Positions 30,647-46,290 of a DNA stretch of 64,000 bases are shown piece by piece. Below the pieces are notes generated by a model. The model was not told the origin of the DNA, made no database searches, and saw only the letters and a list, made by a program, of their open reading frames with translations. The first letter of the stretch is position 1. Each line of letters begins with the position of its first letter. The position numbers were made by a program, and so were the translations under genes. Origin of the DNA: Rhodanobacter lindaniclasticus (GTDB lineage Bacteria > Pseudomonadota > Gammaproteobacteria > Xanthomonadales > Rhodanobacteraceae). Location of the stretch: positions 62,001 to 126,000 of the forward strand of contig NZ_MWIO01000025.1 of assembly GCF_004799035.1 (NCBI RefSeq), given 5' to 3'.

Positions 30647-31504
30647 TCATGGCTCCAGCATCTGCTGGATCCGGTCGAGGTTGCCCAGCAGCAGGGCGCG
30701 ACGGTCGTCGTGGCCTTCGCACAGCTGCACGAACACGCCGTCGAGCAGGTGTTGCAGCGCGGACTGGTACAGCAGCGGCTGGATGTAGGGCAGCTCGTCA
30801 TGGGCGGACACCACCAGCGCAATGTCGGCCAGCGTGCGCAGCGGGTTGGCGGTGTGCCGCGTCACCGTGATCAGCTGGCCGCGGCGCTCGCGGAAATAGC
30901 GGGCGATCTTGCACAGCGCCGGATGGTTGCCGTGCTCGGAGAACATCAGCAGCACGTCGCCGGCGCCGGCGGCGGAGACGTTGGCGGTCATCCGCGCCGT
31001 GTCGAAGTTGTGCACGGTGAGGATGCCCAGCAGCGACAGCCGCAGCGCGAAATTGCGCGCATAGATGTCGTCCTCGCCCAGGCCGATGATGAACACCTTG
31101 CCGGCGCGGCCGGCCTGGCCGATCGCGTCGGCCACCGCGTCGAGCATCTCCGGCGGGTTGATCAGGCGGGTGGCTTCCTCCGCCTCGGACTTGCGCCGCC
31201 ACAGGTTGCCGGCGAAGGCGCCCGTGCCGGCGTTGCCGGCGGTCGACTCGACCTGCAGGGTGTCGCCGTTGTCGGCGCGGGCGATCGCCTCGCCCACGGA
31301 ATACTTGAGGTCGGGATAGCCCTTGAAGCCGAGCTTCTGGGTGAACTTGACCACGCTGGACTGGCTGATCCCCAGCGCATTGGCCAGTTGCTGCGAGGAG
31401 TAGTCGCGCAGCAGGTGCGCGTTCTCCAGCACGAAATCGGCGATGCGCCGCTCCACCGCGGACATCTGGTCGCGTTCCGAACGGATTTTGACCAGCGGCG
31501 ACAT
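30647..31504 (-). CDS. RpiR-family transcriptional regulator (285 aa)
   Basis: An N-terminal RpiR helix-turn-helix (SSQQLANALGISQSSVVKFT, about residues 35-60) is followed by a SIS phosphosugar-binding domain (about 125-265) with VFIIGLGEDDIYARNF. RpiR proteins usually sense sugar phosphates; MurR of E. coli, which senses MurNAc-6-phosphate, is in this family. The gene is the last of a murein-peptide operon and overlaps the epimerase stop by one base (TGATG). It probably controls this operon and the divergent one starting at 35381, with a murein-derived effector (inference). Confidence 0.9.
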   Translation of the reverse strand: MSPLVKIRSERDQMSAVERRIADFVLENAHLLRDYSSQQLANALGISQSSVVKFTQKLGFKGYPDLKYSVGEAIARADNGDTLQVESTAGNAGTGAFAGNLWRRKSEAEEATRLINPPEMLDAVADAIGQAGRAGKVFIIGLGEDDIYARNFALRLSLLGILTVHNFDTARMTANVSAAGAGDVLLMFSEHGNHPALCKIARYFRERRGQLITVTRHTANPLRTLADIALVVSAHDELPYIQPLLYQSALQHLLDGVFVQLCEGHDDRRALLLGNLDRIQQMLEP

Positions 31505-32601
31505 CAGTCCTCGATCCTCTCCAGGCCGCGAATTTCGCGAATGCCCAGGCCGGGCGCATCCGTCACCGAGATCTCCGATTCGTTGAAGATTACCCCACCG
31601 TCGACCGGGTTGAACTGGCACAGCGAGGGGCCGTCCAGGTCGATCTTGGTGATCGCGTTGGACTTGGCCACCGCCACGTGCACCGCGGCCGCCACGCTGA
31701 TCGAGGTTTCCAGCATGCAGCCGATCATGCACTCGATGCCGTGCATGCCGGCGATGTCGGCGATGCGGATCGCGTTGGAGATGCCGCCGGTCTTCATCAG
31801 CTTGATGTTGATGATGTCGGCCGCGCGCAGGCGGATCAGCTCGATCACCTCCATCGGGCCGAACACGCTCTCGTCGGCCATCACCGGCGTGTGCACGCGC
31901 TCGGTGACGTAGCGCATGCCGGCCAGGTCGTTCGCCTTCACCGGCTGCTCGATCAGCTCGAGCTTGATGCCGGCCTCCTCCAGCGTCTGCAGCGCATACA
32001 CCGCCTGCTTCGCCGTCCAGCCCTGGTTGGCGTCCAGGCGCAGCAGCGCGCGCCCTTCCACCGCGGCGTAGATCGCCTTGACCCGCTCGATGTCGACGCC
32101 GATGTCCTTGCCGACCTTGATCTTCAGCGACTCGAAACCGCGCTCCACCGCGGAAACCGAATCGGCCACCATCTTGTCGATGTAGTCGACGCTGATGGTG
32201 ATGTCGGTGGTGATCACCGGATCGCCGCCGCCGAGCAACTTGTACAGCGGCGCGCCGTAGAGCTGGCCCCACAGGTCGTACACCGCGATCTCCACCGCCG
32301 CCTTGGCGCTGGTGTTCTTCTCCATCGAGGACTGGATCAGCTGGGTGATCTGGTTGAGGTTGGCGATCTCCTGGCCGATCAGCCTTGGGGAAATGTAGTG
32401 ACGGATCGCGTCGATGATCGAGCCGTGGGTGTCGCCGGTGATCACCGCGGTGGCGGGCGCCTCGCCGTAGCCGATCTGGCCCGAGTCGGTGTGCATCATC
32501 ACCACGATGTCGTCCACCGTGTTGACCGTGCGCAGCGCGGTCTTGAACGGGGTCTTCAGCGGGACCCGCAGCATGCCGAACTGGATGTCGGTGATTTTCA
32601 T
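31504..32601 (-). CDS. L-Ala-D/L-Glu-type dipeptide epimerase
   Basis: A 365-residue enolase-superfamily enzyme with every residue expected of dipeptide epimerases: Lys160-x-Lys162 (ESLKIKVGKD), metal ligands Asp190, Glu218 and Asp243-Glu244, the opposite-face Lys267 (NIKLMKTGG), and the Asp321-Leu-Asp323 motif that binds the dipeptide amino group. It would convert L-Ala-D-Glu from murein to L-Ala-L-Glu, so that ordinary peptidases can use it. It lies directly after the NlpC/P60 endopeptidase gene (52 bases between), matching the ykfB-ykfC pairing known in Bacillus. Confidence in the class is high. Exact dipeptide preference is unproven. Confidence 0.92.
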   Translation of the reverse strand: MKITDIQFGMLRVPLKTPFKTALRTVNTVDDIVVMMHTDSGQIGYGEAPATAVITGDTHGSIIDAIRHYISPRLIGQEIANLNQITQLIQSSMEKNTSAKAAVEIAVYDLWGQLYGAPLYKLLGGGDPVITTDITISVDYIDKMVADSVSAVERGFESLKIKVGKDIGVDIERVKAIYAAVEGRALLRLDANQGWTAKQAVYALQTLEEAGIKLELIEQPVKANDLAGMRYVTERVHTPVMADESVFGPMEVIELIRLRAADIINIKLMKTGGISNAIRIADIAGMHGIECMIGCMLETSISVAAAVHVAVAKSNAITKIDLDGPSLCQFNPVDGGVIFNESEISVTDAPGLGIREIRGLERIED

Positions 32602-32653
32602 GGAAAGGCCTTCATGGAATCCGTGTCCTGTTTTTTTCTTGGCGTCGGCGCGT

Positions 32654-34060
32654 TCAATGGCGAATGCGCACGATGCTGGTCATGCGCTCGACATAGCTCT
32701 GCTGGTCGTTGTAGAGCAGCGGCAGCAGCGGGGTCACCGACACCGCGTTGAGCTTGATCCGCGCCTTGCTGCCGTCGGCCTTGCGATAGCTCATGCCGCC
32801 CGTGTCGTGGATCACGTACGGCTGGCCATGCAGATGGCCGATCACCATCATCACGTGACCGGGGATGTAGACCAGGTCGCCGACCTCCAGCGCCTGCGCG
32901 GCCTTGAGGCGTTCTTCGCGGCTGTCCTTCGCGGTGAACGCGCGATGCTCCAGCGCCGGGCTGATCGCCTGCCTGCTGGTGTTGCGCGGCATCTGCACGC
33001 CCATGCTGCGATAGACGTCGGAGACAAAGCCCGAGCAGTCGCGGCCATCGTAGGCGTGGCCCCAGCCGTAGCGCTCGCCGAGGAACTTGAACGCCTGGCG
33101 GATGAGGTTGGCGCGGGTCAGCGGCAGGTAGTCCGCCGCGGTATCAGTGTTCTTCTGCAGCAGCGCAGGACTGAAGGCAAGCGAACCATCCGCCTTGCGC
33201 ACGGGCAGATCGAGCACGTACGCGGCATACGGCGTCTGGCCGTTCACCGGCTGATCCGGCGGCAAATCCGTCGCCAGCGGCACCCGGGTGCCCATGTCCA
33301 GCTGCAGTTGCGAGACGGCCGGCACCTCGCGGGTGAACACGGTGCGTGCGACCGCGCCGGTGATCACCCGGTACGGCGTCTTGTCGACGTAACCGAACAC
33401 CTGCGTCGCACTGCCTTCGGCCACATTGTCCTTTTCCGTCCACGCCGCATAGCGCGGGCTGACCACGAACAGCCACTGGCCATCGGCGCTCGAGTGCACG
33501 ATCGCCACCGGCGTGCCGGGGAATTCGGCGGTCTCCTGGAAGCGGTCGATGTCGGTGTCGCCCTCTTCATGGAACACGCGCAACGTGGTGGGGAACGTGC
33601 GCAGCGCAGCGCGGCGCACCACCAGGCCGTAGCGCGTCTTCTGCCGTGCGGGAATCGCGCCCAGCGCGAGGTTGGCGACCACCGCGTCGAGCGTGGCCGC
33701 GGGTACCGGTTTGCCCCCGACGTCGAACAGCGGCCGATCCGGCCGTTGCGACAAGCCCTCGATCCAGCCTTCGACGCGGGCGCGATCCAGCGTCGAAGGC
33801 AGCGCGCGCAAGTCGTGCATCGACGGGTCGATCTGCAGCAGCTTCGCGTTCTGCGCCGCGATCGCCGCGCGATCCAGCACCGGTGCATCAGGCTGCGCCA
33901 GCCGATCGACCCAGAACTGCGGGGTCAGCTGCGCCTCGCCCACGCCGAGCACGCCGGAGGGCGGCACGACCAGCGCCTCGTCGGCGCCGCGAGCCTGCGA
34001 CGGCGCCGCGGCGAGCAGGGGCGCAAGCAGGAGGGTGGCAAGCAGGGGAAATCGCATCAT
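32654..34060 (-). CDS. Secreted NlpC/P60 endopeptidase, YkfC-like (468 aa)
   Basis: Has a signal peptide (1-24), an N-terminal region with SH3-like segments (about 100-290), and a C-terminal NlpC/P60 domain. The catalytic triad is Cys342 (YDGRDCSGFV), His402 (IPGHVMMVIG) and His418 (YVIHDTGG). YkfC-type enzymes cut the bond between gamma-D-Glu and L-lysine or meso-diaminopimelate in stem peptides with a free N-terminal L-Ala, giving L-Ala-D-Glu, the substrate of the epimerase encoded just downstream. The SH3b part restricts YkfC to free peptides. The start at the first Met of MMRFPLL is supported by AGGA 6 bases upstream. Confidence 0.9.
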   Translation of the reverse strand: MMRFPLLATLLLAPLLAAAPSQARGADEALVVPPSGVLGVGEAQLTPQFWVDRLAQPDAPVLDRAAIAAQNAKLLQIDPSMHDLRALPSTLDRARVEGWIEGLSQRPDRPLFDVGGKPVPAATLDAVVANLALGAIPARQKTRYGLVVRRAALRTFPTTLRVFHEEGDTDIDRFQETAEFPGTPVAIVHSSADGQWLFVVSPRYAAWTEKDNVAEGSATQVFGYVDKTPYRVITGAVARTVFTREVPAVSQLQLDMGTRVPLATDLPPDQPVNGQTPYAAYVLDLPVRKADGSLAFSPALLQKNTDTAADYLPLTRANLIRQAFKFLGERYGWGHAYDGRDCSGFVSDVYRSMGVQMPRNTSRQAISPALEHRAFTAKDSREERLKAAQALEVGDLVYIPGHVMMVIGHLHGQPYVIHDTGGMSYRKADGSKARIKLNAVSVTPLLPLLYNDQQSYVERMTSIVRIRH

Positions 34061-34082
34061 CGTGTCCTGTCGCAAGAACGCA

Positions 34083-35234
34083 TCACGGAAGGGCCAGCTG
34101 CTTGAGGATCGACGACACCACCAGGCCGAAACCCGTGCCGAGGATGTAGCCGAGCAAGGCCAGCAGGATACCCACCGGTACCAGCGCAGCCGAATAGCTG
34201 GCCGCCAGGATCGGCGTGGCGGCCACGCCGCCAATATGCGCCAGCGAGGAGATGCCGCACAGGTAGAGGTCGAAGCGGAAAAGTTTCGCGAAGCCGATCA
34301 GCAGCAGCGCGTGGATCGCGATGACGGTGACGCCGCAGAGCAGGTACAGCGGCGCCGCGCCGATGCCGTGGAAGTTGCTCTGCGAGGCCAGCACCGCCAC
34401 CACGCTGATCAGCAGGGCGCCGGAGATCGTGCTGGCGCCCGGGTAACGCGCCAGCGGCGTATGCGCCACCACCAGTCCCGCGCCGGTGGCCAGCAGGATG
34501 GTCCAGGTGGTCGCGCTGAGCATGCTGGAGGTCGGCAGTTTCGCCGCCGCCCAACCGGCCAGCGCGGCGGCCAGCAAGGCCATGCCCAGCCACAGCAGCA
34601 CGCTGTCCGGCGTGGACGGGCCGGTCTGCTTCGCCTCCGCCAACGGGAGGTCGCCGCTCGACTTGGCCCGGGTCCAGCGATTGAACGCCGGCGCCAGGCG
34701 CGCCACCGAGAACAGCACCACCACCCACATCGAATAGCACAGCGCATCGGTCAGCAGCGACATCGCCAGCAGCTGGTCGGACATGTCGATCGCCTGTTTC
34801 ACCGCGATCATGTTGGCGGTGCCGCCGACCCAGCTGCCGGACAACGCGGCCAGCGGCTGCCACTGGTCGCCCGGCAGCCAGTGCCGGTAGATCAGGAACG
34901 CGCCGATGAAGGCCACGAACAGGCTCACCGAGGTGCAGGCGAACACCGCCAGCACGCGCGGCCCCAGCCGCCAGATCGCGCGCAGGTCGCAGTTGATCAT
35001 CAGCAGGAACAGCAGCGCCGGCACCAGGTGCGAGACCAGCATCGACTGCGCCGCGTGGATCTCGTCATTGACCTGCCACAACCCCGACACGGCCAGCGCG
35101 GTGACCAGCAGATAGGTCAGCACGATCGGCGGCAGCACCGAAAAGACCTTCCAGCCGTAGCGGCGCTCGATCGCCGGAAACAGCCCGGCGGCCAGCAACA
35201 TCACCGCCAGGTAGGGCCAGACCGTCTGGATCAC
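34083..35234 (-). CDS. DUF819-family membrane protein (383 aa)
   Basis: About ten to eleven hydrophobic helices with family features LSGSWVGGTANMIAVKQ and LAHIGGVAATPILAASYSAA. DUF819 (YjcL) proteins often neighbour epimerase/NlpC-type murein genes and are thought to be transporters, though none is well characterised as far as I recall. As the first gene of the leftward operon it is a candidate inner-membrane carrier for murein peptides or for the L-Ala-Glu product (inference). It starts about 90 bases downstream of a divergent promoter region. Confidence 0.85.
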   Translation of the reverse strand: MIQTVWPYLAVMLLAAGLFPAIERRYGWKVFSVLPPIVLTYLLVTALAVSGLWQVNDEIHAAQSMLVSHLVPALLFLLMINCDLRAIWRLGPRVLAVFACTSVSLFVAFIGAFLIYRHWLPGDQWQPLAALSGSWVGGTANMIAVKQAIDMSDQLLAMSLLTDALCYSMWVVVLFSVARLAPAFNRWTRAKSSGDLPLAEAKQTGPSTPDSVLLWLGMALLAAALAGWAAAKLPTSSMLSATTWTILLATGAGLVVAHTPLARYPGASTISGALLISVVAVLASQSNFHGIGAAPLYLLCGVTVIAIHALLLIGFAKLFRFDLYLCGISSLAHIGGVAATPILAASYSAALVPVGILLALLGYILGTGFGLVVSSILKQLALP

Positions 35235-35322
35235 ATGCGTCCCCTCGTGGTTCGTCCGCAGCGTATGCCGACCTCGCTACCGCGCCGGTAAGGAATAGCT
35301 GATTCGAACCGGATTGGTTTGA

Positions 35323-35350
35323 AGCATAAATTATTGACCAGCATTTGCAA
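35323..35350 (-). promoter_or_regulatory. Candidate promoter of the leftward murein-peptide operon
   Basis: On the minus strand TTGCAA (35345-35350) and TATGCT (35323-35328) are 16 bases apart in an AT-rich island within GC-rich DNA. It overlaps the rightward promoter, so one bound regulator could control both operons. Confidence 0.5.
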
Positions 35351-35362
35351 GCATGTTACACA
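35334..35362 (+). promoter_or_regulatory. Candidate promoter of the rightward murein-peptide operon
   Basis: TTGACC (35334-35339) and TACACA (35357-35362) are separated by 17 bases, ending 18 bases before the preferred start codon of the transglutaminase-like gene. The -10 match is modest. Confidence 0.45.
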
Positions 35363-35380: not shown

Positions 35381-36919
35381 ATGCGGAGACGCCGCTCGAT
35401 GAATACGCAGTTGCCTGCCGCCACGAGAATACGACGCCACGTCGTGGGCACGCGCCTGCTCCCGCTGATTGCCGCGCTGGTCCTGCTCGCCGCCACGCCC
35501 GCATGGGCGACCGGGGCCCCCGCACTTCCCTCCATCACCGCGCAGATCGATGCCGGCCATTTCAAGGCGGCGCAGGCAGCGATCGACACCGCCCTGGCGC
35601 AACCTGGCGTAACGGCAGATCAGCGTCATGCGCTGCTGTTCCAGCGCGAGCGCATGCGCCGCATCCTGCTCGATTTCACTCTCGGCGCCGACGACGTCGA
35701 GGCGCGCGTGCGCAAATCGATCCCCGACCTCAGCGACGCCGAGTTCGCCAAGTGGAACGCCGCCGGCCTGTTCGAGCACCAGGTGATCGACGGTCGCACG
35801 CTGTATTTCAAGCGGTCGCCCGGCAACCTGTTCCGGCTCAGCCCGGAGGCGGTGGCGCGACGCGCCGTGCAGACGCCGATCAGCGACGGCCCGATGGAAG
35901 CGCTCAACGACCACCAGCGCGCGATCTTCCGCGCCGCGCTCGACCAGCACCGCGCCAGCGTGCTGCCGCAGCGCGTGCGCATGACCCAGACGCTCACCGT
36001 CGACGCCGACGCCGTACCGGCCGGAGAAACCGTGCGCGCATGGATCCCCTATCCGCAGGCGATCCCCGGCCAGCAGGAAGACATCCGCTACGTCGCCAGC
36101 GTGCCGGCGAAGCACGCCATCGCGCCCGTGTCGGCGCCACAGCGCACGGTGTACCTGGAGAAGCCCGCGGTGGCCGGGCAGAAGGCCGCGTTTTCGGTCA
36201 CCTACGAGCTGACCTTGCTGGCGCAATACCACGCGATCGACCCGGCCAGGGTGCAGCCGGAAACCATCACCCCGGAACTGGCCCCGTTCGTGGCCGAGCG
36301 TGCGCCGCACATCGTGTTCACCGACGCCATGCGCGCGTTCTCGCGCAAGGTCGTCGGTGACGAGAAGAATCCGTACCGCATCGCGCAGAAGCTGTTTGCC
36401 GCGGTGGACCGGATCCCCTGGGCCGGTGCGCGCGAGTATTCGACGATCTCCAACATCAGCGACTACGCGCTGCACGCCGGCCACGCCGACTGCGGCCAGC
36501 AGACCCTGCTGCTGATGACCCTGCTGCGCCTCAACGGCATCCCCGCGCGCTGGCAGTCGGGCATGGTGTTCGCCGCCGACGGCAGCGGCTACAGCAACAT
36601 CCACGACTGGGGCTTCCTGTACCTGGCGCCATACGGCTGGGTGCCGATGGACGTCACCACCGGCCGCCTGCATCCGGGCGCGGGCGACGACCCCGCACTG
36701 GAGTGGTTCTACCTCGGCGGGCTCGACAACTGGCGCATCGCCTTCAACGCCGACTACGACCGCCGCTTCGAGCCACCCAAGCGGCACTTCCGTTCCGACG
36801 ACGTGGACTCGCAGCGCGGCGAAGCCGAATGGCGCGGCGGCAACATCTATTTCGATCAACTGGACTACGACTTCGACTGGCGCGTCCTGCCAGCGAGGCA
36901 GGGACGCGGCGGCAACTAA
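35381..36919 (+). CDS. Exported transglutaminase-like protease/amidase-fold protein (512 aa)
   Basis: A signal peptide (n-region rich in Arg, cleavage near ATPAWA) is followed by an alpha-helical N-terminal region, a middle beta domain, and a transglutaminase-like core. The core triad is Cys371 (HADCGQQTLLLMTLLR), His408 (NIHDWGFLYL) and Asp424 (VPMDVTTGRL). Such bacterial proteins are usually cysteine peptidases or amidases rather than crosslinkers. As the first gene of the rightward operon, it may open crosslinked or isopeptide-linked peptides in the periplasm (inference). Two ATGs are possible, 35381 and 35399. The first has AGGGGA close by and gives a better n-region. Confidence 0.8.
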   Translation: MRRRRSMNTQLPAATRIRRHVVGTRLLPLIAALVLLAATPAWATGAPALPSITAQIDAGHFKAAQAAIDTALAQPGVTADQRHALLFQRERMRRILLDFTLGADDVEARVRKSIPDLSDAEFAKWNAAGLFEHQVIDGRTLYFKRSPGNLFRLSPEAVARRAVQTPISDGPMEALNDHQRAIFRAALDQHRASVLPQRVRMTQTLTVDADAVPAGETVRAWIPYPQAIPGQQEDIRYVASVPAKHAIAPVSAPQRTVYLEKPAVAGQKAAFSVTYELTLLAQYHAIDPARVQPETITPELAPFVAERAPHIVFTDAMRAFSRKVVGDEKNPYRIAQKLFAAVDRIPWAGAREYSTISNISDYALHAGHADCGQQTLLLMTLLRLNGIPARWQSGMVFAADGSGYSNIHDWGFLYLAPYGWVPMDVTTGRLHPGAGDDPALEWFYLGGLDNWRIAFNADYDRRFEPPKRHFRSDDVDSQRGEAEWRGGNIYFDQLDYDFDWRVLPARQGRGGN

Positions 36920-36973: not shown

Positions 36974-39900
36974 ATGAGCAACAGTCGCAGCTTGCGCAGA
37001 AGCGTCCTTTGCATGGCACTCGGCCTGGGCATGGCTTCGCTGGTTGGGGGCCCCGCGCTGGCCCAGGCCGTCACCGGCGCCGTGGCCGGGCGCGCCGACG
37101 CCGGCGCGCAGATCACCGTCACCAATACCGCAACCGGGCAGGTCCGCTCGGTCACGGTCAATGCCGACGGTACCTACCGCGTGGCCCAGTTGCCGGTAGG
37201 CGATTACAGCCTGCAGGTCTCGCGCAGCGGCCAGACGGTCGGTGCGCCGGTTGCGGTGGCCGTCTCCCTGGGCGGCACCACAACCGTCAACCTGGGCAGC
37301 GGCGGCAATGTGACCAACCTGCAATCGGTGGTGGTCGTCGGCTCGCCGGTGGTCAATCGCGTGGACGTGTTCTCCACCGAATCGGCCACCAACATCACCC
37401 GTGCCGAGCTGGCCCGCATGCCGGTGGACCAGAGCATCAGCTCCGTCGCGCTGCTGGCGCCGGGCGTGGTCGCTTCCGGTGCCACCTTTGGCGGCCTCAC
37501 CTTCGGCGGCTCGTCGGTGGCCGAGAACGTCGTCTACATCAATGGCCTCGACGTGACCGATCCGTATCGCCGCCAGGGCTTTTCCACGGTGCCGTTCGCG
37601 TTCTTCGAGGAATTCCAGGTCAAGACCGGCGGCTACTCGGCGGAGTTCGGCCGCAGCACGGGCGGCGTCATCAACGCCGTGACGCGCTCCGGCGGCAACG
37701 ACTTCCACGCCGGCGCGGAGACGACGCTGGAACCGTCGGCGTGGGCGGCGACGAAAAAGGATCATTTCCACAGCGACGGCACCATCGACGAACGGGATCG
37801 CACCAGCCGCGACAAGAGCCCGTTCTACAAGGCCAACGTGTGGGCGTCCGGCGCCCTCGTGAAGGACAAGCTGTTCTTCTTCGGCATGTACGAACGGCGC
37901 TACTCCAGGCCGCAGGACATCGATACGTCCGAAGCCTGGAAAACCAAGAGTGACAACGATTTCTGGGGTGCCAAGATCGACTGGCACATCAACGACAACC
38001 ACCTTCTGGAGCTGCTGGCCTTCTCCGACAAGGCCGACTCGACCACCGGCAACTACGACTACACCTGGGACACCGCCACGTTCGGCGACAAGCTGGGCGA
38101 AAGCACGGCGGGTTCCGGCGGCGACAACGGTTCGCTCACCTACACCGGCCATTTTGGCGAGAACTTCGTCGCCAAGGCGATGTATGGCGTGAACAAGCGC
38201 AGCGCCACCAGCGGCAGCCCGTGGGATGCCGATTGCAGCATCGTCACCCGCTCGGGCAGTTACACCGCCGCCTTCGGGCCGGCGACCGAGCAGGAAGGCT
38301 GCCACCCGACCAACAGCAGCATCAGCAGCCGCTTCGACAAGCGCAAGGCGGCGCGCCTCGACTTCGAATGGACCCCGCTGGACAACCACCTGTTCCGCTT
38401 CGGCCTCGATCAGGAGGTCATGGATTCGAGGAGCTCGGTGGTGTATCCGGGCGACGGGACGAGCTACCAGGCCCAGGCCGCCACGCCCGGCGGGCAGTTG
38501 CCCAACGGTACCGTGGTTCCGGTCGGCGTCACCGCCATCGTCGACGCGCGCCACTACGTCACGGGCGCACCGGTCAGCACCAAGGCGCAGGCGGTCTACC
38601 TGGAGGACAACTGGAACGTCACACCCAACCTGCTGCTGAACCTCGGCGTGCGAGCCGACAAGTTCCACAACAAGCTGGCCTCCGGCGCGACCTTCGCCAA
38701 GGCCGATTTCAAGGACATGATCTCCCCCCGCCTCGGCTTCAGCTGGGACGTGAAGGGCGACGGCACGACCAAGGTGTTCGGCAACGCGGGCCGCTACTAC
38801 ATCCCGCTCACCAACAAGCTCACCGACTACTTCGGCGGCGGCACCACGGACGAGCATACCTACTATGCGCTCGATGGCTGGGTCGAGCAGACCGACCCGG
38901 TCACTGGCGGCAGCTATCTTTTCCCCAAGCTCGGCGCGCAACTCGGCGCGGTCAACACCGAAGGGAATGTTCCCGCGCCCGACGACGTGCGCACGGCGGT
39001 TGCCCGCGACCTGAAGCAGGTCTTCCAGGACGAATACATCCTGGGCTTCCAGCAGGCGATCAACCAGACCTGGTCGTATGGCGCAAACATCACCTACCGC
39101 AAGATGACCCGCGCGGTGGAAGACGTGCGCATCAACCATGTCGCGGGATGCGACTGGTATTCCGGCGACTGGCCCATCCTCAACCCGGGAGAGAAGAACA
39201 CCTTGTGGTGTCCCGATACCAACAGCTGGGTCACCTTCGACAGTTCGAAGGATGGCTACGAGGCGCTGGGCAGCGGCGCCGTCATGGGCTACAAGAAACC
39301 GCGACGCACCTACAAGGCGGTCGAGCTGCAGATTGATCGCGCATGGGACGGCAAGTGGGCCTTCAACGCCAGCTATATCTGGTCCAAGAGCGAGGGCAAC
39401 ATCGAAGGTCCGGTGAACTCGGATACCGGTTACGCCGACACCAACCTCGTGCAGTACTACGACCATCCGGCCGTCAACGAGCGCTATGGCGTCCTGTTCA
39501 ACGACCATCGCCACCAGATCAAGCTGCGCGGCAGCTACAAGCTCAACGACATGTGGAGCTTTGGCAGTACGTTCGCAGCCTATTCCGGTGGGCCGATCAC
39601 CGCGTTCGGCGTGCGCTGGCCCAACGACAACCGCAGCGCCGGCGGCCCCGGCGAGTTCAGCGGCGGCGGCTCCGGCTGGCTGTGCGTGGCGAACTGCTCC
39701 GACTGGCAGACGCGCGAGCTGGTCTACACGGGACGTGGCGCGTTCGGCCGCATGCCGTGGGTGAAGGACCTGAGCGCCAGCGTGACCTGGACGCTGCCGG
39801 TGACGGATGTCGATCTGAAGGCGCGATTCTCCATCTACAACCTGCTCAACAGCCAGACGGTCGTCAACGTGCACTCCCGCTACGAGAGCACGCCCGGCGA

Positions 39901-39979
39901 CAAGATGCCCTACTTCGGGCAGGGCACCGTGTGGCAAGCGCCGCGTTACATGCAACTGGTCGTGACGTACACATACTGA
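36974..39979 (+). CDS. Oar-like TonB-dependent receptor with carboxypeptidase-regulatory domain (1001 aa)
   Basis: Has a signal peptide (1-31, ending ALAQ), an N-terminal beta-sandwich of the carboxypeptidase-regulatory type (about 33-105; VTNTATGQVRSVTVNADGTYRVAQLPVGDYSL), a plug (about 110-250; VVYINGLDVTDPYRRQGFS, YSAEFGRSTGGVINAVTRSGGN) and a long barrel ending in Tyr. This is the Oar-like class common in Xanthomonadales, often linked to uptake of peptides or proteins. Cysteines near 410-445, 720-740 and 910-920 may form loop disulfides. Its place between a transglutaminase-like enzyme and a diaminopimelate decarboxylase suggests it brings in murein peptides (inference). A terminator follows. 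Confidence 0.93.
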   Translation: MSNSRSLRRSVLCMALGLGMASLVGGPALAQAVTGAVAGRADAGAQITVTNTATGQVRSVTVNADGTYRVAQLPVGDYSLQVSRSGQTVGAPVAVAVSLGGTTTVNLGSGGNVTNLQSVVVVGSPVVNRVDVFSTESATNITRAELARMPVDQSISSVALLAPGVVASGATFGGLTFGGSSVAENVVYINGLDVTDPYRRQGFSTVPFAFFEEFQVKTGGYSAEFGRSTGGVINAVTRSGGNDFHAGAETTLEPSAWAATKKDHFHSDGTIDERDRTSRDKSPFYKANVWASGALVKDKLFFFGMYERRYSRPQDIDTSEAWKTKSDNDFWGAKIDWHINDNHLLELLAFSDKADSTTGNYDYTWDTATFGDKLGESTAGSGGDNGSLTYTGHFGENFVAKAMYGVNKRSATSGSPWDADCSIVTRSGSYTAAFGPATEQEGCHPTNSSISSRFDKRKAARLDFEWTPLDNHLFRFGLDQEVMDSRSSVVYPGDGTSYQAQAATPGGQLPNGTVVPVGVTAIVDARHYVTGAPVSTKAQAVYLEDNWNVTPNLLLNLGVRADKFHNKLASGATFAKADFKDMISPRLGFSWDVKGDGTTKVFGNAGRYYIPLTNKLTDYFGGGTTDEHTYYALDGWVEQTDPVTGGSYLFPKLGAQLGAVNTEGNVPAPDDVRTAVARDLKQVFQDEYILGFQQAINQTWSYGANITYRKMTRAVEDVRINHVAGCDWYSGDWPILNPGEKNTLWCPDTNSWVTFDSSKDGYEALGSGAVMGYKKPRRTYKAVELQIDRAWDGKWAFNASYIWSKSEGNIEGPVNSDTGYADTNLVQYYDHPAVNERYGVLFNDHRHQIKLRGSYKLNDMWSFGSTFAAYSGGPITAFGVRWPNDNRSAGGPGEFSGGGSGWLCVANCSDWQTRELVYTGRGAFGRMPWVKDLSASVTWTLPVTDVDLKARFSIYNLLNSQTVVNVHSRYESTPGDKMPYFGQGTVWQAPRYMQLVVTYTY

Positions 39980-39993
39980 GGTTTACTCCCTCG

Positions 39994-40026
39994 GCGGCCC
40001 GCTCTCGTGGCGGGTCGCCTTTTTTT
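39994..40026 (+). terminator. Terminator/attenuator after the Oar-like receptor gene
   Basis: GCGGCCCGC/GCGGGTCGC form a 9-bp stem (one G-T wobble) with a TCTCGT loop, then C and seven T residues. The next gene starts 66 bases later in the same direction, so partial read-through could set receptor and enzyme levels apart. Confidence 0.85.
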
Positions 40027-40091
40027 GCAAGGCGCGCTTCCACGCGCGTGCGCCGGCAACCCACCCGAAGCGGATCAGCCACGTGCAGCCG

Positions 40092-41396
40092 ATGATGAAA
40101 ACGACCTCTGCTACTCCGGCCGGCACCACGGATGCGTCTGCAACGCCCACCTCGCACAGCCACTTCGACGGCGTCGACCTGCAACTGCTGGCCGAACGCA
40201 TCGCCACCCCCTTTCACGCCTATTCCGCCAGTGCGATTCACCAGCGCATCGAGGCGCTGAAAACCGCGCTGGTCGGCCTCGATGCCACCATCTGCTTTGC
40301 CGTCAAGGCCAACCCCAACCTCGCCATCCTGCAGCTGATGGCCAACGCCGGCCTCGGCGCCGACATCGTCTCGGTCGGCGAACTGCGCCGCGCGCTCAAC
40401 GCCGGCATGCCGGCCGAGCGCATCGTGTTCTCCGGCGTCGGCAAGAGCGCCGACGAGATCGCCGGCGCGCTGAACGTCGGCATCATGCGTTTCAACGTGG
40501 AGTCGCTGGACGAGTTGCACACGCTGCAGCGCATTGCCAGGGCGCAGGAAGTGACCGCACGCGCCGCCGTGCGCATCAACCCCGACGTGGATGCGCAGAC
40601 CCACGCCAAGATCTCCACCGGCAAATCGGAGAACAAGTTCGGCGTGAGCATCGACGAAGCGCGCCGCTGGTTCGCCCAACGCAAGTCGTTCGACCACGTG
40701 CAGCTCGACGGCCTGCACGTGCATATCGGCTCGCAGATCCTCGACGTTCAACCCTTCCGTCTCGCACTCGCACGCGTGGCCGCGTTCTGGCGCGAGCTGG
40801 AACACGCCGGCCATCCGATCACCAGCATCGACGTCGGCGGCGGGCTGGGTGTGTGCTATCGCGCCGGCGTGGATCATCCGGTGTCCACGACCGACTACGT
40901 GGCCGCGATCCGCGAGGCGCTGGCCGGTTTCCGCGGCCGCCTCCTGCTGGAGCCGGGACGCTGGCTGGTCGCCGAAGCCGGGGTACTGCTGACCCGCGTG
41001 ATCCGCGTCAAGCCCGGCACCGAGCGCAACTTCCTGATCCTCGATGCGGCCATGAACGACCTGCTGCGGCCCAGCCTGTACGACGCCTGGCACGACATCG
41101 TGCCGGTGTCGGACCAGCCGCGCCCGATGGCCACCTACGACATCGTCGGCCCGGTCTGCGAAACCGGCGATACCTTCGCCAGCGCGCGCGAACTGCCCGA
41201 GTGCGCGGCCGGCGACCTGTTGCTGATCAAGGCCACCGGCGCGTACGGTACGTCGATGGCCTCCACCTACAACTCGCGGCCGCTGGCCGCCGAGGTCTTG
41301 CTGCACCAGGGCCGCTACGCCGTGATACGACGGCGCCAGCACTTCGAGGAAATGATTGCCGGCGAACAGCCGGCCCGGAACTGGAAAACGCCATGA
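40092..41396 (+). CDS. lysA: Diaminopimelate decarboxylase (fold-type III PLP enzyme)
   Basis: Removes the D-centre carboxyl group of meso-diaminopimelate to give L-lysine. The 434-residue protein has PLP Lys72 in CFAVKANPNLAILQL, HIGSQILDVQPF, the GGGLGVCY loop, LEPGRWLVAEAG, and the active-site CETGDTFA together with YNSRP. It sits in an operon with a TonB receptor and an M19 dipeptidase rather than with lysine-synthesis genes. It therefore probably degrades scavenged murein diaminopimelate, while a housekeeping copy may exist elsewhere (inference). Start choice lies between GTG 40083 and ATG 40092; the stop overlaps the dipeptidase start (ATGA). Confidence 0.92.
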   Translation: MMKTTSATPAGTTDASATPTSHSHFDGVDLQLLAERIATPFHAYSASAIHQRIEALKTALVGLDATICFAVKANPNLAILQLMANAGLGADIVSVGELRRALNAGMPAERIVFSGVGKSADEIAGALNVGIMRFNVESLDELHTLQRIARAQEVTARAAVRINPDVDAQTHAKISTGKSENKFGVSIDEARRWFAQRKSFDHVQLDGLHVHIGSQILDVQPFRLALARVAAFWRELEHAGHPITSIDVGGGLGVCYRAGVDHPVSTTDYVAAIREALAGFRGRLLLEPGRWLVAEAGVLLTRVIRVKPGTERNFLILDAAMNDLLRPSLYDAWHDIVPVSDQPRPMATYDIVGPVCETGDTFASARELPECAAGDLLLIKATGAYGTSMASTYNSRPLAAEVLLHQGRYAVIRRRQHFEEMIAGEQPARNWKTP

Positions 41397-42604
41397 GCAC
41401 GACTGCCCGCCTCGCCCTTCTCGCCGCCTTCGGCTTTGCCTTCGCGTCGGCCGCGCAGGCGCAGCAAGATCCGCCGGTCACCATCGACACCCACGTCGAC
41501 GTCCCGTTCGACTACATGGGCGAGCCGCGCTTCGACGTGGGCCACGACACCCGCCTGCTGGTCGACCTCGGCAAGATGGAGCGCGGCGGACTCGATGCGG
41601 CGTTCTTCGTGGTCTGGGTGCCGCAGCACAAGCTCGACGCTGCCGGCTACGCCAAGGCGGTGCAGCAGGCGAGCCAGAAGTACGACGGCATCGGCCGCAT
41701 GCTGATGAAGTATCCCGACCGCATCCGCCTGGCCACCACGCCGGAACAGCTGCGGGCCAATCACGAGGCCGGCCTGCTCTCGGCCACCATCGAGATCGAG
41801 AACGCCTACTCGCTCGGCCATGACCTGCATCGCCTCGACGCCGCCTACGACCGTGGCGCCCGCTCGGTCGGCCTGGTCCACGTCGGCAACAACGACCTGT
41901 GCACCAGCTCGCTGCCCGACACCGAACACGGCGAGAGCGCGATGAACAGCGCCGGCGACACCGGCATGAGCGACTTCGGCCGCGCCGTGGTCAAGCGCGC
42001 CAACGAACTCGGCATGCTGGTCGACATCTCGCACGCCTCGGACCGTTGCGTGCGCGATGCGCTGAAGGTCTCCAGCACGCCGATCATCGCCTCCCACTCC
42101 GGCGCCCGCGCCGTGCTGGACCACCCACGCAACCTGCCCGACGACCTGCTGCGCGCGATCGCCGCCAAGGGCGGCGTGATCGACGCGGTCGCCTACAAGG
42201 AATTCCTCAAGCACGACCCCGGTCGCGCGGCCGCCGAGAAGAAATTGCAGGAGGCCGTGGCGAAGGGGGCCGGTGAAAAGGAATACGACAGCGACAACGA
42301 CGACTACCGCCCCGAGATGGAAGCGGGCATGGCCGAGATCCAGCAGAAGTACCCGCTGGCCACGCTGGACGATTACGTGAAGCAGATCCGACACATGGTG
42401 AAGGTCGCCGGCATCGACCACGTCGGCATCGCCTCCGACTTCGACGGCGGCGGCGGCATCACCGGCTGGAAGGACGCCAGTGAAACCCGCAACGTCACCG
42501 CCGCCCTGCGCAAGGCCGGTTTCAGCGACGCCGACATCGCCAAGCTGTGGGGCGGCAACCTGCTGCGCGTGTGGGGCGAGGTAGAACGCCATGCGCAGCA
42601 CTGA
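41393..42604 (+). CDS. Exported M19 membrane-dipeptidase-type zinc peptidase (403 aa)
   Basis: A signal peptide (1-23, ending AAQA) is followed by a metal-dependent TIM-barrel peptidase of the renal-dipeptidase family. The first metal motif is His34-x-Asp36 (TIDTHVDVPF), the bridging Glu lies in SATIEIENAYS, and further ligands are in VDISHAS and ASHSGARAVLDHPRNL. HVGIASDFDGGGG closes the site. M19 enzymes hydrolyse dipeptides and accept a D-residue at the C-terminal side, which suits murein-derived L-D dipeptides. It is translationally coupled to lysA (ATGA) and overlaps the next gene by 14 bases. Confidence 0.93.
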   Translation: MSTTARLALLAAFGFAFASAAQAQQDPPVTIDTHVDVPFDYMGEPRFDVGHDTRLLVDLGKMERGGLDAAFFVVWVPQHKLDAAGYAKAVQQASQKYDGIGRMLMKYPDRIRLATTPEQLRANHEAGLLSATIEIENAYSLGHDLHRLDAAYDRGARSVGLVHVGNNDLCTSSLPDTEHGESAMNSAGDTGMSDFGRAVVKRANELGMLVDISHASDRCVRDALKVSSTPIIASHSGARAVLDHPRNLPDDLLRAIAAKGGVIDAVAYKEFLKHDPGRAAAEKKLQEAVAKGAGEKEYDSDNDDYRPEMEAGMAEIQQKYPLATLDDYVKQIRHMVKVAGIDHVGIASDFDGGGGITGWKDASETRNVTAALRKAGFSDADIAKLWGGNLLRVWGEVERHAQH

Positions 42605-44318
42605 GCAAGCTCTGCTCCCTCTCCTGCGACCAAAGGTCCCTGTGGGGCATCGCGGGGAAGAGCTGGGGTGGGGTGCTCTTCCGCACGCCGGAGCTACCCC
42701 CTCCCAACCTCCCCCTGCAAGCAGGGGGAGGAGCCAAGAGCATCTGCCCCCTCCCCTGCATCGCAGGGGAGGGTTGCGGTGGGGTGCTCTTGCTCTTCTG
42801 CTCCTGCTCGCACCGCTTGCCGCGAACGCCGAAGACGCCAACCCTGGCTACGACAAGATCGTCGACGCCGTCGTCGCGCGTTACCACCTGCCCGGCATCG
42901 CCGTCGGCGTGATCGAGAACGGCCAGGTCGTCTACACCCGCACCGTCGGCGAAACCGTCGCCGGCTCGGGCCAGAAGATCACCCCGCGCACGCTGTTCAA
43001 GATCGCCTCCAACAGCAAGGCGATGACCACCGCCCTGCTCGGCCGCCTGGTCGACCAGGGCAAGCTGCACTGGGACGATCCGGTGACGAAATACCTGCCG
43101 CAGTTCCGCATGCACGATCCGTGGGTCACCGCGAACATGCGCGTGGCCGACCTGCTCACCCATTCCAGCGGCCTGCCCGAAGGCGGCGGCGACCTGATGC
43201 TGTGGCCGGAGCCGAACGCGTTCACCCGCGCCGACATCATCCACGGCCTGCGCTTCATCAAGCCCGGCTACAGCTTCCGCGCGCAATACCAGTACGACAA
43301 CCTGCTCTACGTGGTGGCCGGCGAAGTCGCCGCCGCCGCGGGTGGCGCGTCGTACGAGACACTGATGCACCGCGAGGTGTTCGCGCCGCTGCACCTGGAC
43401 CGCTGCCAGGTCGGCGCGTGGAACCGCGACACCGTCGGCGACGTGGCCACGCCGCATCGTCGCGACGACGGGCGCAACGTGCCGATCCCCGAAGCCGCCG
43501 CAATCCCCGCGATCACCTCGGCCGCCGCCGGCGGCATCCGCTGCGACCTCACCGACATGCTGAGCTGGGCGCGCAACTGGCTGGTGCCCACCCCGGCCCA
43601 GCTCCAGTGGCTGTCGCCGCAGCAGCGCAAGACGCTGCAGGCGCCACACATGCTGATCCCCGTTTCCGCGCAGCGTCGCGCCTGGGACAACAGCCACATC
43701 ATGGCCTACGGCTACGGCTGGCGCATGGCCGACGTCGACGGCCAGTGGAACGTCTGGCACACCGGCACCTTGAACGGCATGTATTCGATGCTGTCGCTGC
43801 TGCCGGATCGCAACAGCGGCTTCGTCTTCATGATCAACGGCGAAGCCGACGACGCCCGCACCGTGCTGGGCGAAGTGCTGACCAAGCACTTCACCGCGCC
43901 GAACGATACGCGCGACGTGAACTGGTACGCCGACACACTGGAGCGCAAGTCGAAGCAGCACGCGGAGAAATCGCCGCTGCCGGATACCTCGACCTGGCAG
44001 GCCGCCACCACGACGGAAATGGCGGCGTGGACAGGCACGTATCGCGACCCATGGTTCGGTGACATCACGCTGTGCCCGCAGGACGGCAAGGTTCGCTTCG
44101 CCGCGAAGAAGTCGCCCGCGCTGACCGGCACGGCGATGCGGCTGGGCAAGCGCTACCTGGTGCATTGGGACAACGGCGAACTGGATGCGTGGCTGGATTT
44201 CAAGCCCGCTGCCGACGGCACGCCGATCTCCCTGCGCATGGCCAAATTCGATCCGGACGGCGACTTCAGCTCCGATTACGAAGACCTCGCTTTCCGGCGC
44301 GTCGGGGGTTGTCCATGA
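42591..44318 (+). CDS. Exported serine hydrolase, class-C beta-lactamase fold, with repeat-interrupted signal peptide
   Basis: A penicillin-binding-protein-like/AmpC-fold hydrolase (S12 family) with the nucleophile motif Ser140-x-x-Lys143 in KIASNSKAMT, the Tyr motif region in QYQYDNLLYVVAG, and the third motif as WHTGTLNG. A C-terminal lipocalin-like domain (about 470-575) follows. Its relatives are D-aminopeptidases, esterases and DD-peptidases. The ATG at 42591 has a good GAGG ribosome site and overlaps the dipeptidase stop. A hairpin-rich repeat (42613-42791) lies in frame between MRSTEQALLPLL and the hydrophobic ALALLLLLAPLAANA, giving a ~60-residue n-region. A TTG at 42774 could serve as an alternative start. 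Confidence 0.85.
   Translation: MRSTEQALLPLLRPKVPVGHRGEELGWGALPHAGATPSQPPPASRGRSQEHLPPPLHRRGGLRWGALALLLLLAPLAANAEDANPGYDKIVDAVVARYHLPGIAVGVIENGQVVYTRTVGETVAGSGQKITPRTLFKIASNSKAMTTALLGRLVDQGKLHWDDPVTKYLPQFRMHDPWVTANMRVADLLTHSSGLPEGGGDLMLWPEPNAFTRADIIHGLRFIKPGYSFRAQYQYDNLLYVVAGEVAAAAGGASYETLMHREVFAPLHLDRCQVGAWNRDTVGDVATPHRRDDGRNVPIPEAAAIPAITSAAAGGIRCDLTDMLSWARNWLVPTPAQLQWLSPQQRKTLQAPHMLIPVSAQRRAWDNSHIMAYGYGWRMADVDGQWNVWHTGTLNGMYSMLSLLPDRNSGFVFMINGEADDARTVLGEVLTKHFTAPNDTRDVNWYADTLERKSKQHAEKSPLPDTSTWQAATTTEMAAWTGTYRDPWFGDITLCPQDGKVRFAAKKSPALTGTAMRLGKRYLVHWDNGELDAWLDFKPAADGTPISLRMAKFDPDGDFSSDYEDLAFRRVGGCP
42613..42791. repeat. G/C-skewed hairpin repeat inside the 5' end of the serine hydrolase gene
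   Basis: Contains two perfect 11-bp hairpins: CCTCCCCCTGC/GCAGGGGGAGG (42708-42731) and CCCTCCCCTGC/GCAGGGGAGGG (42749-42773). It also holds two copies of GGTGGGGTGCTCTT (ending at 42680 and 42791). The block is low in coding character, yet its length keeps the reading frame open. It looks like a doublet of an intergenic palindromic element inserted into a signal-peptide region. Confidence 0.8.
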
Positions 44319-44366
44319 ATGTCTCGCCTTCCCCGACACAATTACGCGAAAAGCTCGTCGAAACCC

Positions 44367-44444: not shown

Positions 44445-44473
44445 GCATCGCCACAACCAAGGGGGCCTCCGCC

Positions 44474-45526
44474 ATGCACAGACTCTTCGTTGGCCTCGCC
44501 GTGGCCACCCTGCTCGCCGGCTGCGGCGGCACCAAGCCGGTCGACCCGGTCAACCTGTTGATGGCGCCCTACACCGGCGACGTGCCCGGCGCCTCGCTGC
44601 TGGTCATCAAGGACGGCAAGGCCGTGCTCGATCGCAGCTACGGCCTGGCGAATCTCGAGGACGACGACGAGACAAAGCCGGCGACCAATTACCGCCTCGC
44701 CTCGATCAGCAAGCAGTTCACCGCCGCGGCGATCCTGCTGCTGGCCGAGCAGGGCCGGCTCAAGCTGGACGATCCGGTGCGCCAATGGCTGCCCTCGCTG
44801 CCGGAGACGACCTCGGCCGTCACCCTGCGCCAACTGCTCGACCACACCGGCGGCCTGGTCGATTACGAGGATCTGATCCCGCCCGGCACCACCGGGCAGG
44901 TCAGCGACAACGACGTGCTGAGCATACTCTCCGCCACCCCGAAGACCTACTTCGCGCCCGGCACCGCCTATCGCTACAGCAACACCGGTTACGTGCTGCT
45001 CGGCCTGGTGGTCGAGCGCGCCTCGGGCTACAGCCTGCCGCTGTACCTGAAGCAGCAGATCTTCCAGCCGCTGGGCATGAACCACACGCTGCTGTACGAA
45101 AGCGGCGGCCCCGAAGTGGACGACCGCGCCTACGGCTACAGCGAGGTGAACGGGCAGTGGACGCGCACCGACCAGAGCGTCACCAGCGCCACCCGCGGCG
45201 ACGGCGGCATCTATTCCTCGGTCGAGGACCTGGCGAAGTGGGACGCCGCGCTGTACGACAACCGCCTGCTCAGCGACGCCTCGCGCAAGCTCGCCTTCAG
45301 CCCCCACGTGAAGGTCACCGGCGAGCCGTACGAGGCCAGCTACGGTTATGGCTGGCGCATCACCGGCGACACGCTGTGGCACTCGGGCGAGAGCATCGGC
45401 TTCCGCAACGTGATCGTGCGCTGGCCGAAGCAACACCTCACCGTGATCCTGCTCAGCAACCGCAACGAGCCGGAGCCCTACCGCACCGCGCTGGAGATCG
45501 CCAAGCCGTGGCTGCAGGAACCGTGA
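44474..45526 (+). CDS. Lipoprotein serine hydrolase, class-C beta-lactamase fold (350 aa)
   Basis: The N-terminus MHRLFVGLAVATLLAGCGG is a lipoprotein signal with Cys17 as the acylation site. The S12-type domain has Ser77-x-x-Lys80 in LASISKQFT, a Tyr motif in YRYSNTGYVLLG, and the third motif as WHSGESIG. It lacks the extra C-terminal domain of the upstream paralogue. Likely activities are D-amino-acid peptidase, DD-carboxypeptidase or esterase; the context favours trimming of murein peptides. The frame is open further upstream, but that part crosses a repeat and the end of the previous gene, so the ATG at 44474 is preferred. The stop overlaps the amidase start (TGATG). Confidence 0.88.
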   Translation: MHRLFVGLAVATLLAGCGGTKPVDPVNLLMAPYTGDVPGASLLVIKDGKAVLDRSYGLANLEDDDETKPATNYRLASISKQFTAAAILLLAEQGRLKLDDPVRQWLPSLPETTSAVTLRQLLDHTGGLVDYEDLIPPGTTGQVSDNDVLSILSATPKTYFAPGTAYRYSNTGYVLLGLVVERASGYSLPLYLKQQIFQPLGMNHTLLYESGGPEVDDRAYGYSEVNGQWTRTDQSVTSATRGDGGIYSSVEDLAKWDAALYDNRLLSDASRKLAFSPHVKVTGEPYEASYGYGWRITGDTLWHSGESIGFRNVIVRWPKQHLTVILLSNRNEPEPYRTALEIAKPWLQEP

Positions 45527-46290
45527 TGCGTGGTTCGCCCCGCTGGCCGCGCAGCGCTGCCATCGTGGTGCTGCTCGCCCTGCTCGCCGCCTGCGCCCCG
45601 CTGCCGCCGCGCAATCCGCTGGCGACCTGGGTACCCTCGCCCAACCACGACATCCGCCGCCCGGTGCTGATCGTGCTGCATTTCACCGACCAGCACTCGG
45701 CACGCGAGAGTCTGCACACCTTGCGCACGCAGAACAGCGGCGGCCCGGTCAGCGCGCACTACCTGGTCGGCGCCGACGGCCACGTCTACCAGCTGGTCGC
45801 CGATCAACTGCGCGCCTGGCACGGCGGCGGTGGCCGCTGGGGCACGATCACGGACATCAACTCCGCCTCGATCGGCATCGAGCTGGACAACGATGGACAT
45901 TCGCCGTTCGCGCAAGCGCAGATCGACAGCCTGCTGCGCCTGCTCACCGACCTCACCACGCGCCTGAACATCCCGCCCGCGCAGATCATCGGCCACCAGG
46001 ATCTCGCGCCCACGCGCAAGAACGATCCCGGCCCGCTGTTCCCCTGGCAGCAACTGGCCGCCGCGGGTTTCGGCCGCTGGCCGCAAGGCGTGCTGGTCGA
46101 TCCGCCCGCCGGCTTCGATCCGTGGATGGCGCTGGCGGTGGTCGGCTACCCGCTGGACGACCGCGCCGCCGCAGTGCGCGCGTTCCACAACCACTTCCGC
46201 GGCCTCGGCGGCGATGAACTCGACGCTCAGGACTCGCGCATCCTCTGGAACCTCGTGCAGCAGATCGAGGCGGGCGGAAACGACGACTGA
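45526..46290 (+). CDS. AmiD-like lipoprotein N-acetylmuramoyl-L-alanine amidase (254 aa)
   Basis: A lipoprotein signal (LLALLAACAP, Cys near residue 24) precedes an Amidase_2 domain with Zn ligands His52 (VLHFTD), His157 (IIGHQDLAP) and Asp167 (KNDPGP). A C-terminal segment (about 190-254) resembles a small peptidoglycan-binding helical domain. AmiD of E. coli is an outer-membrane lipoprotein that strips stem peptides from murein fragments. Here it would supply free peptides to the endopeptidase and dipeptidase of the same locus. It is the last gene of the rightward operon, coupled to the upstream hydrolase. Confidence 0.9.
   Translation: MRGSPRWPRSAAIVVLLALLAACAPLPPRNPLATWVPSPNHDIRRPVLIVLHFTDQHSARESLHTLRTQNSGGPVSAHYLVGADGHVYQLVADQLRAWHGGGGRWGTITDINSASIGIELDNDGHSPFAQAQIDSLLRLLTDLTTRLNIPPAQIIGHQDLAPTRKNDPGPLFPWQQLAAAGFGRWPQGVLVDPPAGFDPWMALAVVGYPLDDRAAAVRAFHNHFRGLGGDELDAQDSRILWNLVQQIEAGGNDD

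Follow-up and report, generated by a model that had tools for sequence, protein, structure and literature searches.

The closest described systems for the use of murein stem peptides are those of Bacillus and Escherichia coli. In the ykfABCD operon of Bacillus, and in ykfBC of B. cereus, the gene for a YkfB-type epimerase adjoins that for an SH3b-NlpC/P60 gamma-D-Glu-diamino acid endopeptidase, and in B. cereus the endopeptidase carries a signal and the epimerase does not, according to the account in PMC2954226. The same account describes the E. coli MpaA-YcjG route, in which the gamma-D-Glu-meso-diaminopimelate (mDAP) bond is cut, L-Ala-D-Glu is epimerized and the dipeptide is split, and it refers to the murein-peptide permease of B. 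subtilis as unidentified. Here we describe a divergent gene locus of Rhodanobacter lindaniclasticus, found in a window of 64,000 nt (C28:62001-126000, the whole stretch of DNA analysed, from a genome of 4.06 Mb in 109 contigs), that is likely to serve the catabolism of murein stem peptides under one local regulator.

In the window locus an epimerase gene likewise adjoins an SH3b-NlpC/P60 endopeptidase gene, with a signal-like N-terminus in the endopeptidase and none in the epimerase, and thus the dipeptide must be imported. Neighbours of the ykf type were also seen in B. velezensis. Unlike the Bacillus ykf operon, the locus has no S66 gene or ABC peptide transporter among its genes, and its endopeptidase is of the lysin type; instead there are a DUF819 protein, a TonB receptor, a transglutaminase-like enzyme, LysA, M19 and S12 hydrolases, an amidase and an RpiR regulator. 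It differs also from the E. coli route, in that MpaA is an M14 enzyme whereas the window locus uses an exported cysteine peptidase. TonB-linked carbohydrate utilization loci hold together a receptor, exported hydrolases, an inner-membrane carrier, cytoplasmic enzymes and a local regulator. The window locus is like these in layout, but its target would be murein peptide, and the SusD family is absent from the Pfam matches of its genes. A search of the open literature, with most subscription journals outside the search, brought up no account of a locus like this one. The features, in window coordinates, are as follows.

27231-28367, minus strand: FAD oxidoreductase, DAO family
28494-29732, minus strand: DAACS sodium:dicarboxylate symporter, 4-base overlap with the YkuD gene
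29729-30535, minus strand: YkuD-domain protein, signal-like N-terminus
30647-31504, minus strand: RpiR/MurR-type regulator, HTH_6 and SIS domains; start overlaps the epimerase stop
31504-32601, minus strand: L-Ala-D/L-Glu epimerase, enolase superfamily, cytoplasmic-looking; closest structure 1jpm/1tkk
32654-34060, minus strand: NlpC/P60 endopeptidase, SH3_6 and NLPC_P60 domains, signal-like N-terminus, DvLysin/PnpA-like lysin type
34083-35234, minus strand: DUF819 membrane carrier, PF05684 (256.4 bits, residues 13-380 of 383)
35292-35306, no strand assigned: second conserved imperfect palindrome, GAAT-N5-ATTC, candidate RpiR operator
35322-35362, no strand assigned: conserved divergent element AAGCATAAATTATTGACC ... 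TACACA (AAGCATAAATTATTGACC at 35322-35339, TACACA at 35357-35362)
35381 or 35399-36919, plus strand: Transglut_core cysteine hydrolase, signal-like N-terminus
36974-39979, plus strand: Oar-like TonB receptor, CarboxypepD_reg, Plug and OMP_b-brl_4 domains
39993-40019, plus strand: terminator-like hairpin, stem of 11 pairs, tail of T7, between receptor and lysA
40083-41396, plus strand: stand-alone LysA diaminopimelate decarboxylase (TIGR01048), no signal seen
41393-42604, plus strand: M19 dipeptidase, signal-like N-terminus
42591-44318, plus strand: first S12 serine hydrolase, true start probably downstream of 42591
44474-45526, plus strand: second S12 serine hydrolase (S12b), lipoprotein signal LAGC
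45526-46290, plus strand: Amidase_2, AmiD/AmpDh2-like N-acetylmuramoyl-L-alanine amidase, lipoprotein signal LAAC

Profile matches confirm that all eleven genes from rpiR to the amidase gene, which an earlier note had described as a divergent locus, are present with the domains named there. The end that it had set at RpiR has to be moved, as 70 of 73 relatives have the YkuD gene after rpiR and 62 have DAACS; the leftward gene train probably runs on past RpiR with YkuD, DAACS and the FAD oxidase. By eye and hydropathy, with the lipobox called by pattern, the NlpC/P60, transglutaminase-like, M19 and YkuD proteins appear to be exported, the epimerase and LysA to stay in the cytoplasm, and S12b and the amidase to be lipoproteins. 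The YkuD-domain protein is one that we take to resemble YafK. Scans for Rfam families and for tRNA gave no match. Repeat-like intergenic sequence was noted by eye within both of the apparent gene trains (28380-28466, 30535-30647 and 42600-42790, ends approximate), where the frames read ARERAPA, IPNPESR and PPQPSPA.

The best match of the epimerase among solved structures is the B. subtilis L-Ala-D/L-Glu epimerase 1jpm/1tkk (351.7 bits). Residues Arg24, Lys160, Lys162, Asp190, Glu218, Asp243, Lys267, Asp321 and Asp323 are invariant in 81 of 81 sequences and are the same in 1jpm; we take these to be the catalytic lysines, the metal ligands and, in Arg24, Asp321 and Asp323, the substrate residues. 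Since no YkfB-clade model is among its NCBIfam matches, the enzyme is said here only to work like an L-Ala-D/L-Glu epimerase, from these residues and the nearest structure. The locus LysA scores 470.4 bits against the TIGR01048 equivalog cut-off of 297.9. The sole other LysA match above the cut-off in the genome lies inside an 874-aa frame on contig C58, which is probably a fused aspartokinase-LysA. The amidase, with its Amidase_2 domain and lipoprotein signal, has the features of the outer-membrane enzymes AmiD and AmpDh2, which are also its nearest structures (AmpDh2 4bpa, 6.7e-35; AmiD 2bh7, 3.7e-29). AmpG, Mpl and S66 exceed their cut-offs on other contigs (S66 on C61) and MpaA has no match in the genome; thus the locus looks like a catabolic branch apart from self-recycling.

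The NlpC/P60 protein has an SH3b domain and a Cys-His-His catalytic domain, with Cys342 and His402 kept in 79 of 79 sequences and His418 in 78. Important is the position of Asp256 of BcYkfC, as placed by alignments to 3h41, which is Asn360 in 76 of the 79 sequences and Asp in three. PMC2954226 states that this Asp binds the free L-Ala amine, and the requirement of YkfC-type enzymes for a free L-Ala end is given in PMC9928106. Tyr204 is invariant (79/79) and lies in a likely strand; the position of BcYkfC Tyr118 falls outside the residue-level alignment to 3h41. In the AlphaFold model (mean predicted local distance difference test, pLDDT, of 78.7, with residues 331-340 at the active site below 50), the best Foldseek matches are DvLysin 3m1u (8.0e-28) and PnpA 6sqx (1.5e-19), followed by the weaker DPP-VI-like 3npf (2.0e-9) and 3pvq (3.3e-9). 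Template modelling (TM) scores are 0.66/0.72 against 3m1u_B (442 columns, root-mean-square deviation 5.5) and 0.62/0.63 against 6sqx_B, so that the protein shares both the four-domain architecture and the full-length fold of these lysins. YkfC 3h41 is matched in sequence at 4.7e-6 and is absent from the best 50 Foldseek rows. A role as a YkfC recycler was rejected on the Asp256 position, the closer lysin folds and this weak match to YkfC itself.

PMC7860986 identifies 3M1U as DvLysin, gives gamma-D-Glu-mDAP cleavage for DvLysin and PnpA, and describes murein from Vibrio anguillarum and V. vulnificus as a substrate of PnpA; unlike the window protein, neither enzyme is described with an epimerase catabolic gene set in the parts of that paper cited here. 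Because of the Asn at the Asp256 position and the lysin-like fold, the substrate of the NlpC/P60 enzyme is probably murein itself or stems still bound to it; prior action of the amidase, the order proposed in the earlier note, would not be required.

Conservation of the neighbourhood was followed in the 80 best of 418 epimerase relatives. Named members are Lysobacterales, the nearest being Rhodanobacter sp. 67-28 (99% identical), and L044, L061 and L083 are metagenome-assembled genomes (MAGs) with a phylum-level name only. Enough upstream sequence was available for 75 loci, enough downstream sequence for 73, and both flanks for 71; neighbour counts depend on the identity thresholds that were chosen. 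The earlier note had looked to a shared gene order in relatives, and this is what was found: NlpC/P60 and the transglutaminase-like gene are present in 75 of 75 loci and RpiR in 73 of 73. DUF819 is in 55 of the 75. Within 10 kb upstream, beyond which later genes often fall outside the fetched stretch, the receptor is seen in 69 (at least 40% identity), lysA in 54, M19 in 52, the first S12 in 36 and M15 in 22 of the 75. The FAD oxidase was counted in 37 of the 73 downstream flanks. In a survey of 151 genomes of the order (epimerase at E <= 1e-60, transglutaminase-like gene at E <= 1e-30) the epimerase is found in 45, the transglutaminase-like gene in 30 and both in 27, and in all 27 the two lie on one contig with a gap of at most about 3 kb. 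The Fisher p of 8e-15 for this co-occurrence is only a guide, as the genomes are interrelated and partly share species with the 80 relatives. The gene order of the locus exceeds chance.

Related loci add further murein genes: M15, an S66 LD-carboxypeptidase, MpaA, and NagA or NagB. Two loci from another family of the order, with an epimerase of 71-72% identity, are informative. L113 has within about 10 kb of the epimerase an MpaA gene (241.3 bits, cut-off 157), S66, Alr, a D-serine-dehydratase-like gene, NlpC/P60 (36%) and an SSF symporter, with an Amidase_2 and PG_binding_1 gene and a CarboxypepD_reg TonB receptor nearby; its NagA exceeds the TIGR00221 cut-off, and a glutamate-racemase-like gene stays below its NCBIfam cut-off. 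L121 has, at a similar distance, a NagB above the TIGR00502 cut-off. By their content, the gene sets of L113 and L121 point strongly to murein. Counter-examples are G258 and G268 (L111, L112), where a distant transglutaminase-like gene (41-44%) is present and the other locus homologs are absent.

The DUF819 protein is a candidate inner-membrane carrier for L-Ala-D-Glu. Its family is placed among the CPA/AT transporters, closest to Na+/H+ exchangers, in the treatment of PMC8396727, and PMC12671195 lists 75 genomes of Neisseria meningitidis in which a DUF819 gene comes after one for an M15-family metallopeptidase. A Fusobacterium vincentii record (2.1 Mb, labelled plasmid) holds the best plasmid-collection match for both DUF819 and the epimerase (matches H4, H5, H7 and H10-H18 were left out of inspection). 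There the two genes are 20 bases apart and are followed by a Beta-lactamase2-family gene and, one open reading frame further, by a 491-aa protein with a DCSG motif and no Pfam match. A DUF819 tree, built with linked genes from 12 of 58 relatives (the weak L104 was dropped at tblastn and the epimerase-linked L103 left out deliberately), separates 14 epimerase-linked sequences (13 from Lysobacterales, one from Fusobacterium) from 18 unlinked ones at 100/100. The tree is unrooted and the Fusobacterium branch is long (1.75), so that shared ancestry of the linked genes is not proven. In the phylum, 15 of 249 genomes have DUF819; the window genome and G213 are among them, and both copies are epimerase-linked.

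Two wider roles for DUF819 were rejected. A general murein carrier is not favoured, as the unlinked copies (25-32% identity) have no other locus homologs among called neighbours, a check that is weak at L089 and L092, where the gene caller missed DUF819. An indispensable part is not favoured either, as DUF819 was not found in 20 of 75 loci. In the 71 loci with both flanks, DUF819 and DAACS occur together in 49, DAACS only in 11, DUF819 only in four and an APC permease in one. In three genomes of the order that possess the epimerase locus (G031, G090 and G094), DUF819 genes belonging to the unlinked branch, one or two per genome, lie elsewhere.

The receptor gene (36974-39979) seems to have been exchanged in place between lineages. 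In trees that took 27 of 69 usable loci, the window Oar groups (100/100) with that of L046, a Rhodanobacter denitrificans MAG, and with Luteimonas/Pseudoxanthomonas types, 9 of the 27 rows. It is 46% identical to the L006 receptor, while the adjacent transglutaminase-like gene groups with L006 (100/100), and the starred branches of the receptor tree force at least four changes. The transglutaminase-like protein keeps a Cys365, His402, Asp418 triad in 24 of 24 aligned sequences, and its model (pLDDT 87.1) matches the putative cysteine protease 3isr (5.8e-14), TgpA (1.5e-6) and, weakly, the pseudomurein endoisopeptidase PeiP (2.6e-3). The variant locus G296 (L110), described below, may hint at the role of this enzyme.

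The two gene trains diverge from a conserved intergenic region. GTCAATAA is common to 78 of 78 such regions (77 relatives and the window), and a GTGTAACA-like block is found exactly 23 nt from it in 74, at 24 nt in two and unmatched in two. Read rightward, the element is TTGACC-17 nt-TACACA, which could be the -35/-10 of the transglutaminase-like gene, and an A+T-rich stretch on the opposite strand could serve as the leftward promoter. TACACA is a poor -10 box, however, fitting TATAAT at three of six positions, and a simple promoter scan of the region, for which 1.6 sites were expected, gave one at the locus, at 35359-35330 of the minus strand. With these limits, the overlapping promoter of the earlier note is plausible.

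In the window the 17-base element was matched once (0 expected). Genome-wide, with up to two mismatches allowed, there is likewise a single match, a perfect one, and a backward control pattern also has one. A wide regulon is not indicated by this single occurrence in the genome. Of 15 additional loci from the order (L110-L124), the two with an rpiR ortholog (L122 and L123, 57-58%) contain the element, and the remaining 13, three of which retain the transglutaminase-like gene, have no exact match to it. As it is seen only where an rpiR ortholog is present, we infer that RpiR binds the shared intergenic region, with the GAAT-N5-ATTC palindrome as candidate operator.

It should be noted that the one rightward operon first proposed is not supported. 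A terminator-like hairpin follows the receptor in the window, and a comparable hairpin with a T tail is found at the receptor/lysA junction in 37 of 41 relatives, as compared with one of 64 at the preceding junction. The terminator scan as a whole gave 7 against 9.1 expected, and the hairpin at 39993 rests on conservation, not on the scan. Because of this hairpin, the genes from lysA onward are probably expressed by read-through or separately.

The following route is suggested by the predicted activities. Murein fragments would reach the periplasm, with the Oar-like TonB receptor as entry point for any that come from outside. There the exported lysin-type NlpC/P60 enzyme would cut gamma-D-Glu-mDAP in murein or its fragments, the AmiD-like lipoprotein amidase would detach from muramic acid either the L-Ala-D-Glu that is left or entire stems, and the S12 hydrolases, in relatives also a VanX-type M15 enzyme, would trim the D-Ala end. 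DUF819 would carry L-Ala-D-Glu inward across the inner membrane, where the cytoplasmic epimerase would turn it into L-Ala-L-Glu for ordinary dipeptidases to finish. Alternatively, M19 may split part of the dipeptide outside, and D-Glu may enter by DAACS. The locus LysA would decarboxylate mDAP to L-lysine. The SIS domain of RpiR may sense a catabolite, and RpiR would then control, and co-express, both directions from the shared intergenic region.

Other genes of the window and its contig touch on related chemistry. The contig carries two DgcN-DgcA-like gene pairs for D-glutamate, at window 21149-23259 and at L004:14715-18332, with DgcA above the NCBIfam cut-off twice and DgcN once (518.1 and 474.8, cut-off 480); the three matches of the window epimerase in its own genome (E <= 0.001) are all within 38 kb. 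Near the first pair are two Amidohydro_3 genes (window 1132-2832 and L004:15458-17278) that look like N-acyl-D-amino-acid deacylases. A gamma-glutamyltranspeptidase gene (23284-25167) directly follows DgcA and has the same neighbours in L006. At 57524-63995 a melibiase-like hydrolase and a BadF/BadG-type kinase, with a SIS-like protein between them (by eye), possibly form an amino-sugar cluster.

What the locus feeds on can be read in several ways. External murein is a plausible source, and it is suggested by the TonB receptor, by the exchange of receptors between lineages and by the lysin type of the endopeptidase. The same enzymes could instead recover fragments of the cell's own wall that escape during turnover into periplasm or medium. 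This has less than an even chance: several enzymes look periplasmic or lipoprotein, and the YkuD-domain protein that so regularly follows rpiR belongs to a family of own-wall enzymes, but the AmpG-Mpl-S66 self-recycling set exists on other contigs, L113 and L121 add SSF, NagA or NagB, and an Oar-like receptor in 69 of 75 relatives, swapped between lineages, is as expected of an outward-facing function. A locus for general peptide or D-amino-acid utilization, with murein peptides as one of several substrates, appears unlikely. The M19 and S12 families are broad, the D-glutamate pairs and Amidohydro_3 genes lie on the same contig, and G296, which has no epimerase there, groups an M61 gene with the transglutaminase-like gene, YkuD and DAACS; however, NlpC/P60, amidase, epimerase and LysA together, with M15, S66 and MpaA in related loci, are hard to explain without murein stems. 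Still less probable is that the NlpC/P60 enzyme and the lipoproteins serve to attack neighbours, a role proposed for PnpA, with uptake of the products secondary. The closest folds are indeed the lysins DvLysin and PnpA, and the latter cleaves the murein of possibly competing Vibrio species as reported in PMC7860986, but the gene sits within a catabolic set with epimerase and carrier, and the N-terminus, by eye, is only a plain signal-like one; no search aimed at immunity genes or a secretion system was made.

Several observations weigh against murein stem-peptide catabolism as the function of the locus. The epimerase falls under both NCBIfam Ala-Glu epimerase cut-offs (NF041118, 255.5 of 500; NF011708, 110.2 of 343), models that in our reading describe other clades. 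No specific family model is fitted by the S12 enzymes (AmpH 88.1, cut-off 266) or by the FAD oxidase (best 52.7, cut-off 257), the Oar-like receptor has no assigned ligand, and the transglutaminase-like enzyme is left unexplained. Within the 10 kb upstream, 21 of the 75 loci gave no lysA and 23 no M19; DUF819 was not found in 20, and six of 71 loci with both flanks have no DUF819, DAACS or APC permease. G373, of the same genus as the window, has no match to the epimerase or the transglutaminase-like gene, and seven other genomes of the family in the order survey have no epimerase match. In G296 (L110) the transglutaminase-like gene, YkuD and DAACS stand beside an M61 aminopeptidase, and no NlpC/P60 or epimerase homolog is found in that stretch. 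The 80 relatives compared, as the best of 418, are close kin. Of the scavenging system proposed in the earlier note, the murein-peptide chemistry is supported, through the epimerase, the amidase, the extra LysA and the related loci, as is a conserved gene order, whereas the amidase-first order, the single rightward operon and the boundary are not borne out in the form given there.

If murein stem-peptide catabolism is indeed the function of this locus, one branch of DUF819 would have a testable function, and Oar-like receptors would be tied to a substrate class. It would also explain why a second LysA and a YkfB-like epimerase are kept in one conserved neighbourhood. TonB-linked use of murein as food would then stand beside the pathways of Bacillus and E. 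coli.

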